DNA of 64,000 nt. Origin: Candidatus Saccharimonadota bacterium. GTDB taxonomy: Bacteria; Patescibacteriota; Saccharimonadia; Saccharimonadales; UBA4665. A program made the position numbers and the translations under genes. Below are positions 10,757-16,621 of this stretch, one piece after another. The notes beneath the pieces are model-generated. The model saw nothing but the letters and a program-made list of their open reading frames with translations, ran no database searches and was not told where the DNA came from. Position 1 is the first letter of the stretch, and every line of letters starts with the position of its first letter. The stretch spans positions 19,395-83,394 of the forward strand of contig DAIEFN010000002.1 in the NCBI GenBank assembly GCA_027325485.1. Reading direction: 5' to 3'.

Positions 10757-11413
10757 TTACTTGATGACTTGAGGCGGGGTCTCTACGCTATGCTGAAGCG
10801 CAAAGAGTGGCAAGGCAATCAGTGCCAGGCCACAGGCTAATAAAAAGATGATTTGTGACAACAGGGTTACTTTATCAACTACGACGCTTAAGATGAGAAA
10901 AATACCACTTAGACTCCAGATCCAAAACAGCGCTCGGGCCCACTTATAGCTGGCTTCCCTTTGCTTAGTGCTACGAGCTTGGCGCATGCTAGCATAAAGC
11001 GCGCCAAGCAGCCCAAGAGCGGCGACAATTGAAGCGGTGTCGTGCAGCGAGAGAATCTGGACTGGCGCTATGCCACAAGCTGAAATGCTTTCACTGCAAC
11101 GATTTGAGATTGGCGTAATGGCTTCGAGTAAGGTTGCTGCACCAAAGACGATATAGCCGAAGAGGATCTTCCTACTTGATGGGTTAAGCTTGGCTAGTCT
11201 AGCGCCAATGGCAATCACAATTGCGGCAGTTAACGCATCACCCAGCGCAAAAAGCCAGGCGTAAGGACGGCCAGAGACTTCAAGGGCACTTAAGTATTTA
11301 TTATTTAGCGAGATCGGATCTAACCAAAAAGCCAATGGCCAACTATTGTAGAGCACTGCCGTAAGCAGGCTTAACCCAAAGGCAGTACGGTTGACCTCTA
11401 ACCTATCAAACAT
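10757..11413 (-). CDS. DUF998-like six-helix membrane protein
   Basis: About six hydrophobic helices, with an external loop containing two cysteines (NRCSESISACG) and the sequence LHDTAS ahead of helix 4, both features I associate with DUF998 proteins. No biochemical role is established for the family. 218 residues; single gene, divergent from the mTERF-like gene. Confidence 0.65.
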   Translation of the reverse strand: MFDRLEVNRTAFGLSLLTAVLYNSWPLAFWLDPISLNNKYLSALEVSGRPYAWLFALGDALTAAIVIAIGARLAKLNPSSRKILFGYIVFGAATLLEAITPISNRCSESISACGIAPVQILSLHDTASIVAALGLLGALYASMRQARSTKQREASYKWARALFWIWSLSGIFLILSVVVDKVTLLSQIIFLLACGLALIALPLFALQHSVETPPQVIK

Positions 11414-11492: not shown

Positions 11493-11521
11493 TTTACAGA
11501 GTACTCGTTTGATGGTATAAT
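11493..11521 (+). promoter_or_regulatory. Strong promoter for the mTERF-like gene, predicted leaderless
   Basis: TTTACA (11493-11498), 17-bp spacer, TATAAT (11516-11521). The ATG at 11528 follows after only 6 nt, so the transcript should begin at the start codon, and indeed no ribosome site is seen. Confidence 0.65.
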
Positions 11522-11527
11522 AATAGT

Positions 11528-13042
11528 ATGTACTCGCCTGAGGTGGTTGGCTCTAAAGAAATTAAACCTGACTTTCATTTCGTTTTAGCGGATACGGAAT
11601 GGCTGGCGAGGCTTGGCTATAGTTGGCCGGAAGAAGATACGCAAGCTGGCTTAAACTACCTAGAAAATGTGCTGAGCATCGCCTCAACACCACCTAACCC
11701 ATATAGCTCTACACAATCTGATAATCTTCAGTCCATAATTGCTCGGAATGAATTCATTAATGGTCTAACTAACCTCGAAGATTACCATAAACACAAACTG
11801 ATTGAACGACCGGATTTAGTTATCTCGCTCGGTTCAGTTATTGGCACCCAGCGCATCCTGCATGATTTAGATATCGATAATCAGCGCGTGATGCGCGCTT
11901 TCCCGGCCATCTTAAGTCTCAAGCCGGAAGTTTTGAAAGCTCAATTAGATAACCTAACGACAATCGGGATTAAGCCACGCCGAGTAATTAATCTCTACGC
12001 TCCAGTTCTTGATTTGGCACCAGAAGAGATTAACTTTAGGATTGAGACAATCAATAGCCTGGGGCTAAATGCCTTAAAAGTAATTAACATCTTCCCACAG
12101 ATACTTGGCATGCAGCGCGACACGATTAAAGCCCGGATGGCTAACCTAAGTAAACAAGGGTTAGATGATCATAAACTAGTCCATAGCGACAGCTTTATCC
12201 TGCGTTATCCAACTGAAGCCATTAATGCCAAGCTGAAATTTATTAAGAACATGGGGCTAGATATGCCTCGAGTCGTTAATGTCTTCCCAACTACTTTAAG
12301 CTACGCCTTCTCAACCCTTAAACTAAAGTTTGATAACCTGACCGAACTAGGCTTAGACGCCGTTAACTGCATCGATAATAACCCCGCCATTTTTAGTTTA
12401 GCTCCTGAAACCGTAAAGAGTCGCTTTGAGCATTTAACGCGGCTGGGTCTAAATGCCGTCGTGGTTGCAAACCACAATCCTAGCATCTTTAGCAAAAGTG
12501 AAGATTTAATTGAGTCTAAAATTAATAATCTCACGGCCTTAGGTCTGAATGCCGTAAAGATAGTTAATACGCGTCCAGTCATTTTAAATCCACCACCCGA
12601 GACGATCAAAGCTAAGCTTAGAGTGCTCTACGGTGCAAGCCGGGCCTGGGGCTTGAGAAATTACAAGAGCCCAGTTAACCATTTCGTTGAAAGTTATCCG
12701 GCGTTATTAGGCTATAGCTCAGATCGCAACCGGGTTTTAATTCGGATTTTAAATAATAGTCTCGATCCGCACACCCACATCACACTCCATCAGATACGCT
12801 CACTAACTAGTAATAATCTTGAGGCAACTCTTGCGGCCTATTTGAAACAAGATAAAGAGTCTAGCTCGATAGAGCAAATATCTGAGCAGAGCCGAGTTTT
12901 GTATGAACTTGGCTATCAGGCACTACAAAATTTAATCCTTGCTCCAGAGCATGCTAATGATTCGGCCGTAAACGTCTACCAGCGCAGTTTAGCGCGCAGG
13001 GCTAGCATTGCTAAGCACCACCAAAGTTATCACACTCACTAG
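11528..13042 (+). CDS. Protein with eight tandem 32-residue mTERF-like repeats
   Basis: Residues 114-369 consist of eight units of exactly 32 residues with consensus LGLNAxKVINxxPxILxLxPETIKAKLxNLTx. The pattern (Leu-Gly-hydrophobic, a central P-x-I/L-L/F, and an amphipathic helix) matches the helical mTERF repeat known from mitochondrial and plastid transcription-termination factors, which stack into a nucleic-acid-binding superhelix. The flanks (1-113 and 370-504) are not repetitive; the C-terminal part is helical and ends His-rich. No signal peptide. 504 residues. Likely cytosolic, binding DNA or RNA; another helical-repeat function is possible. The PafA/Dop-like gene starts 48 bp downstream on the same strand. 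Confidence 0.75.
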   Translation: MYSPEVVGSKEIKPDFHFVLADTEWLARLGYSWPEEDTQAGLNYLENVLSIASTPPNPYSSTQSDNLQSIIARNEFINGLTNLEDYHKHKLIERPDLVISLGSVIGTQRILHDLDIDNQRVMRAFPAILSLKPEVLKAQLDNLTTIGIKPRRVINLYAPVLDLAPEEINFRIETINSLGLNALKVINIFPQILGMQRDTIKARMANLSKQGLDDHKLVHSDSFILRYPTEAINAKLKFIKNMGLDMPRVVNVFPTTLSYAFSTLKLKFDNLTELGLDAVNCIDNNPAIFSLAPETVKSRFEHLTRLGLNAVVVANHNPSIFSKSEDLIESKINNLTALGLNAVKIVNTRPVILNPPPETIKAKLRVLYGASRAWGLRNYKSPVNHFVESYPALLGYSSDRNRVLIRILNNSLDPHTHITLHQIRSLTSNNLEATLAAYLKQDKESSSIEQISEQSRVLYELGYQALQNLILAPEHANDSAVNVYQRSLARRASIAKHHQSYHTH

Positions 13043-16276: not shown

Positions 16277-16621
16277 TTAGCTCGCGTAATCGCCGACTTC
16301 TGGTATTTCAGCAGTTTTAAGACGGCGCATCCGTCTTAGCGTGCTCTGGCTTAAACCGCCCCAAACTCCATAATCTACTTGGTTTTCTAGCGCATAGCGC
16401 AGGCAGTGCATGGTGACAAGACAATTCGCGCAGTGCTGTTGAACTTGCTCGGTAGATGCTCTATCTTCTCGGAAAAATAGATTTGCATCGACGTTACTGC
16501 AAGCCTTAAACTTCAGCCATTCGTAATCTGGCACCCTATGAAGAGTCATTGCTTCATACTTAAGTTCGACCAAACTCGCTTGGTCCATATCTTCCTGTTG
16601 ATAAGGTATATTTTCACTCAT
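16277..16621 (-). CDS. WhiB-family iron-sulfur transcription factor
   Basis: The four cluster ligands are C41, C64, C67 and C73 (Cys-x22-Cys-x2-Cys-x5-Cys), followed by the diagnostic turn GVWGG (85-89) and a basic DNA-binding tail (RRMRRLK). WhiB proteins carry an oxygen- and NO-sensitive [4Fe-4S] cluster and work with the sigma factor; they are regarded as nearly specific to Actinobacteria and their phages. It lies between the cytochrome b gene and an acidic-protein gene, all on the same strand with short gaps, so it could control respiratory or redox genes. 114 residues. Confidence 0.93.
   Translation of the reverse strand: MSENIPYQQEDMDQASLVELKYEAMTLHRVPDYEWLKFKACSNVDANLFFREDRASTEQVQQHCANCLVTMHCLRYALENQVDYGVWGGLSQSTLRRMRRLKTAEIPEVGDYAS

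Follow-up and report, generated by a model that had tools for sequence, protein, structure and literature searches.

Whether the mTERF family extends to bacteria, and what an array of its repeats would do there, is the question raised by a gene in a stretch of 64,000 nucleotides from a Candidatus Saccharimonadota bacterium (assembly GCA_027325485.1, contig DAIEFN010000002.1, positions 19,395 to 83,394), which as a whole is called the window in the following. According to two accounts, the family is "found only in eucaryotes", with almost all members targeted to organelles (PMC4005652), and "appears to be specific to organelles" (PMC8998825). The preliminary description of the gene likewise took mTERF proteins to be nearly limited to eukaryotes, which agrees with print (PMC4005652), but both are corrected by the bacterial family described here, to which the gene product and its eight repeats belong.

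A Bacterial Member of the mTERF Family

The gene product is a bacterial member of the mTERF family, as indicated by its sequence profile, its predicted fold and matches to known structures. The Pfam model for mTERF (PF02536) matches the protein with 62.7 bits (cut-off 23.1) at an E-value of 3.5e-17, and an alignment of 12 relatives compared with the PDB sequences yields nine distinct matches, all of them to MTERF1 or MTERF3 (best E-value 1.5e-6). The predicted model contains three helices per unit, which are stacked into a superhelix like those of MTERF1 and MTERF3, and fold searches with it match mTERF structures of the PDB, including complexes of MTERF4 with NSUN4. The mTERF-like identity proposed in the preliminary description is thereby borne out, and neither of the outcomes named there as contrary to it, a fold unlike mTERF, such as TPR or armadillo, or the lack of an mTERF match in profile searches, has appeared. 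NCBIfam contains no matching model for the window protein. TPR, armadillo, PPR and OPR repeats occur neither among its Pfam matches nor among the fold-search rows shown, which would be insufficient alone to exclude such an identity. Other Pfam matches on the arrays of this family, such as ENCP4, Symplekin_C, PTase_Orf2, UBA_3 and Maf_N, have the appearance of false matches caused by the repeats; in one relative (P0017), the scores of ENCP4 and PTase_Orf2 exceed the cut-offs, yet no single stretch is significant alone.

The eight units, each exactly 32 residues long, into which residues 114-369 were previously reported to divide, are reproduced by a clear periodicity: the identity at a lag of 32 residues amounts to 0.286, no other lag between 20 and 44 exceeds 0.095, and none of 10,000 shuffles evaluated over the same lags reaches the lag-32 value (best value 0.149). 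Among the majority residues in the columns of the eight units are G2, L3, P13, I15, L16, E21, I23, K24 and K/R26, and the earlier consensus LGLNAxKVINxxPxILxLxPETIKAKL is a fair summary of them. Because the units are only 29% identical on average and no tandem repeat is detected in the gene at the DNA level, the window copy is, as judged from its sequence, an old and diverged array. Helical parts flank the array on both sides; the N-terminal one contains a region conserved among the 12 aligned relatives (W25, R73, F76, I105, Q108), and the structural alignment with MTERF3 covers model residues 196-487, so it takes in some of the C-terminal one.

Homogenised Arrays and Hypervariable Positions

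Many relatives of the window protein consist of arrays of near-identical units of 96 bp in variable copy number, as exemplified by an array of nine units with 91% matches in genome G007 and one of about ten units with 97% matches in G001, which is ended by the contig end. The genome of the window itself contains a second, homogenised array of three units (contig 22, 2332-3336), whose ends are identical to those of four proteins with 6, 5, 5 and 4 units (P0006, P0010, P0019 and P0023; first 128-154 and last at least 172 residues). Similarly, P0021 and P0035 have five versus four units between identical ends, and P0007 and P0008 have eight versus six units and slightly different N termini. Such differences in repeat number may partly result from collapse during short-read assembly.

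The variation within these arrays was analysed in 20 arrays comprising 104 units, which remained from 28 arrays of three or more units whose mean identity was 0.60 or higher after removal of eight redundant arrays; positions 1-10 of each first unit and 24-32 of each last unit were masked as array ends, and the cut-offs were chosen after the sequences had been seen. The mean within-array difference is 0.585 at position 12, 0.556 at position 17, 0.506 at position 14 and 0.479 at position 18, followed by values of 0.237 and lower, with positions 1, 26 and 30 being invariant within arrays. Together, the four hypervariable positions hold 43.7% of all within-array differences (0.26 to 0.80 of those in single arrays), compared with 12.5% for an even distribution. 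When the positions are picked on one half of the arrays, they hold a median of 43.6% of the differences in the remaining half; 982 of 1000 such splits lead to the same four. The residues used are restricted, with mostly G, S or N at position 17 and nearly always Y, L or F at position 18; 67 distinct four-residue sets occur among the 104 units, 12 of them in at least two arrays.

For the five arrays with available DNA, three of which have few units or few differences, the nonsynonymous difference amounts to 0.519 at the four positions versus 0.071 elsewhere, and the synonymous difference to 0.068 versus 0.123. The array of G001 varies nonsynonymously in five codons (11, 12, 17, 18 and 24) and synonymously in one (2). 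Orthologues of the window protein differ from it at 1 of 32, 9 of 32 and 16 of 32 residues of the four positions versus 14 of 224, 51 of 224 and 95 of 224 of the remaining ones; these similar rates fit a fixed target and would equally fit neutral positions.

Relation to Base Recognition by MTERF1

MTERF1 reads bases by R162, R202, R251, R350 and R387, and the prolines of its repeats line the major groove (PMC4705650). Numbering from the alignment of the PDB chain places R202, R350 and F243 at unit position 14, R162 at position 11, and R251 and Y288 at position 22, with R387 falling outside the aligned part. F243 has a role in base flipping, and R169 at unit position 18 is taken by us to be a further contact. 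One of the hypervariable positions (14) is a main contact position of MTERF1, and the other three lie at most five residues from the groove-lining proline; this overlap is suggestive only.

As judged from the model, the eight repeats of the window protein would form a superhelix whose likely ligand is DNA or RNA of a specific sequence; residues near each proline are likely to touch the bases. We hold this reading with moderate confidence. The nucleic acid would be held on the concave face of the superhelix, the invariant K26 together with the conserved K7 and R/K24 would contact its backbone, positions 12, 14, 17 and 18 would select the sequence, and the number of units would set the length of the target. 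For the window copy, a single fixed target is envisaged, to which it would most simply bind as a roadblock or repressor, and the homogenised relatives may be retargeted through change, loss or copying of units. A more tentative extension, which we find somewhat doubtful, is that Saccharibacteria and their relatives possess a programmable mTERF-repeat scaffold for nucleic-acid recognition, in which units undergo copying, loss and homogenisation and each unit's four-residue set determines which base or bases it reads, as an analogue of the TAL effectors with another fold. Control of transcription termination by the window protein, as suggested in the preliminary description, is a guess, and binding of a structured RNA, the alternative named there, would likewise be conjectural.

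Distribution of the Family

A search of about 5.8 billion proteins with the window protein retrieved 11 relatives and a profile search 62 proteins, each search scoring only the approximately 7,994 candidates that shared most words; PF02536 is precomputed on 53 of these 62. The profile matches 10 of the 93 genomes of the window's family, including 7 of the 19 of its genus, and 11 of 392 genomes sampled in the class. The Pfam model matches 5 of 61 relatives, 7 of 379 genomes sampled in the phylum (two over the cut-off, one of them G238) and none of 14 control genomes. Some of the relatives located in gat or housekeeping gene rows score too low for the Pfam cut-off, and it is the profile alone that recognises them. 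Exact-word scans of genome contigs (two) found no relatives although the genome search does, and are too insensitive here.

A second lineage is represented by the arrays of the G238 type, which share the Pfam mTERF match (122 bits for G238) but differ from the window type in their 33-residue units and other ends, and whose relatives include a protein of Candidatus Taylorbacteria. Considering only arrays anchored on the right proline, the four positions hold shares of 0.23 in G238, 0.25 in P0070, 0.30 in P0076 and 0.47 in G497 (three units), versus 0.12 if even. A recount for P0076 gives 17, 6, 32, 12 and 18 as its most variable positions, with a share of 0.33 and position 14 outside the top ten.

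An origin from phages or plasmids was rejected on searches of phage records (50,697, no match for the window protein), of viral contigs (no match for P0017, the only query) and of plasmids, where the one match of P0017 (23%) stems from a glycine/asparagine repeat gene read out of frame. PADLOC gave no match. PHROGs contains none for the window protein and weak ones for P0013 and P0017, the function of the matched groups being unknown, and a sub-cut-off match of P0013 to AAC_3 in NCBIfam is taken as chance. No recognisable paper on a bacterial mTERF was found in the open-access literature; most subscription papers are outside this scope, so such absence is unproven. The word mTERF is absent from the main text of a TALE-inspired screen for tandem repeats (PMC5472282).

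Promoter and Gene Neighbourhoods

The features of the locus and of related loci are collected in Table 1. A promoter scan gave five sites versus 3.2 ± 1.8 in shuffles, which is an ordinary count, and the site listed in the table is the best of them. The arrangement TATAAT-N6-ATG recurs in L069, L070 and L038, the three window-type loci with upstream DNA read, and was not seen in the two homogenised-type genes inspected (L034 and L036). Because this spacing of exactly 6 nt is conserved in the window and three relatives, the predicted transcript of the mTERF gene is likely leaderless, in keeping with the separate and probably leaderless promoter assigned to the gene earlier.

Table 1. Positions of the mTERF gene, its parts and neighbours in the window, and of mTERF-like genes at related loci (the latter with locus prefix).
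Feature	Position	Strand	Basis or remark
DUF998 protein gene, divergent neighbour of the mTERF gene	10757..11413	-	Pfam
Predicted sigma-70-type promoter TTTACA-N17-TATAAT	11493..11521	+	11/12 matches in scan, 6 nt before ATG
mTERF protein gene	11528..13042	+	ATG start, 504 aa
N-terminal helical part, residues 1-113, preceding the array	11528..11866	+	AlphaFold2 model
Eight 32-residue mTERF units, residues 114-369	11867..12634	+	Repeat periodicity
C-terminal helical part, residues 370-504	12635..13039	+	AlphaFold2 model
Pup-ligase-family protein, 459 aa	13091-14470	+	PF03136, E 4e-32
WhiB-family gene	16277-16621	-	PF02467, E 1e-17
gatA-X-mTERF-gatB rows, family f30	L087:3248-7461; L085:114-4351; L096:3118-7143; L095:3-2122		Gene ends touch or overlap
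mTERF-like genes within housekeeping rows	L086:6815-7855; L084:5435-6487	opposite to row	

The divergent DUF998 gene is also found upstream of the window-type mTERF genes of G004 and G009, and is broken into pieces in G015, where a DNA methylase gene and an endonuclease VII-like gene separate these pieces from the mTERF gene. DUF998 genes occur in 5 of the 19 genomes of the genus, four of which carry a window-type mTERF gene. The idea of an obligate pair is weakened because in G013 the DUF998 gene comes immediately after the cytochrome b gene ends, without an mTERF or Pup ligase gene between them.

The Pup-ligase-like protein is nearer to Dop than to PafA, far below both NCBIfam cut-offs, and neither Pup nor the 20S proteasome has a match in the genome of the window, which is 83% complete. 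The Pup_ligase family occurs in 24 of the 61 relatives. A functional link of this gene to the mTERF gene was rejected: of the seven genomes of the genus with an mTERF match, only G000 and G007 contain Pup_ligase, and the window-type carriers G004, G009 and G015 all lack it.

The WhiB family is known from Actinobacteria. A WhiB gene directly follows the mTERF gene on the opposite strand in G004 and comes after the end of the mTERF gene, at the start of another contig, in G015; the contig of G009 ends 252 bases past the mTERF gene. In the window, WhiB is separated from the mTERF gene by the Pup-ligase-like gene and a cytochrome b gene.

A short mTERF-like gene of family f30 forms part of a gatA-X-mTERF-gatB row, with gatB being next in all four genomes and gatA preceding in all three whose contig reaches that far; in one of these rows (L085), two adjacent mTERF units are nearly identical. 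Further mTERF-like genes are located on the other strand between nusG and rplK (G628) and between rpsH and rplF (G756).

Beside the homogenised array in the genome of the window, a PBECR-nuclease-like protein (below cut-off) and an open reading frame which looks transposase-like by eye are encoded at L034:1733-2209 and 527-1444, and the same contig 22 encodes a protein of 248 residues with another repeat of about 30 residues (L034:6427-7173, AELGLPSDATWxDI...EQNRQRT). Genes for ATPases resembling type IV secretion coupling proteins or HerA lie within about 3.5 kb of the homogenised arrays in G007 and G016 (L036:11586-13805 and L039:13539-15791), maybe by chance.

Discussion

Several observations weigh against a protein that reads nucleic acid sequences. 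A permutation test with the MTERF1 contact positions 11, 14 and 22 gives p = 0.106, and p = 0.028 is obtained only with position 18 (R169) added; moreover, positions 11 and 22 are not among the hypervariable four. The net charge is low: eight proteins range from -11 to +8, with the window protein at +2. Arg or Lys is present at positions 12, 14, 17 and 18 in 2, 0, 3 and 0 of the 104 units (5/416), unlike the arginines of MTERF1. The window protein alone has no match among the PDB sequences at E-values up to 1. Furthermore, the gene is patchy within family and class and hence not essential to the clade, and its sites differ among lineages.

The low net charge would suit an array which binds a protein partner instead of nucleic acid via its variable surface positions, as MTERF4 holds NSUN4. 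The abundance of hydrophobic or aromatic side chains at positions 12 and 18 and the MTERF4-NSUN4 complexes among the fold matches point in the same direction, but the four positions are grouped around the proline by which the DNA groove is lined in MTERF1, and MTERF4 also binds rRNA (PMC8998825), and we regard a purely protein-binding array as unlikely. Still less probable appears an explanation by drift at the least constrained positions of the fold, with the array having a structural or non-specific role only: the orthologues of the window protein indeed change about equally fast at the four positions and elsewhere, and positions 12 and 18 fall within or next to modelled turns, but drift would account poorly for the nonsynonymous excess at the four positions of the five arrays, which is accompanied by fewer synonymous differences there than elsewhere, for the five nonsynonymous against one synonymous codon in G001, or for the restricted residues at positions 17 and 18. 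A role in translation or ribosome assembly through binding of rRNA or tRNA, like those of MTERF4 and mTERF9 in organelles, is brought to mind by the gat row of family f30 and by the copies between ribosomal-type genes, albeit on the other strand; we consider it very improbable for a gene present in so few genomes of the class (11/392), absent from 12 of the 19 genomes of the genus, and not near gat or ribosomal-type genes in the window.

The proposed binding of a specific nucleic acid sequence invites comparison with known repeat systems. MTERF1 and MTERF3 resemble the window protein in exceeding the Pfam cut-off, in their units of about 30 residues and, as far as its model shows, in three helices per unit and a superhelix of the same shape, whereas the window family is bacterial, has constant 32-residue units and includes relatives with near-identical units, and its proteins have a low net charge and no row of arginines at base-facing positions. 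The TAL effectors offer a likeness in the way of working, not in membership, as the near-identical units of the relatives vary at few fixed positions (four, in 20 arrays); the window protein itself, with its diverged units, does not follow this pattern. TAL effectors and Bat/BurrH proteins differ in having two variable positions instead of four, and the units described here are predicted to contain three helices and match them only weakly in structure; a TAL effector unit consists of two helices. The TAL_effector model of Pfam has no match in the window protein (E-values up to 1), nor in P0013 or P0017 (up to 0.01). PPR and OPR proteins are likewise composed of helical repeats and read RNA in organelles (PMC4005652, PMC13126933), but their units have 35 and 38 residues and two helices, and Pfam finds neither PPR nor OPR repeats in the window protein.

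The repeats of eukaryotic mTERF proteins are described as degenerate (PMC4005652), so that a recognition code is difficult to decipher there. The homogenised bacterial arrays, in which four positions vary naturally while the frame stays constant, make the question of an mTERF code directly testable and could yield a new programmable binder. The bacterial mTERF family may have been a source of the eukaryotic mTERFs or an independent recipient relative to them, and offers a comparison in either case.
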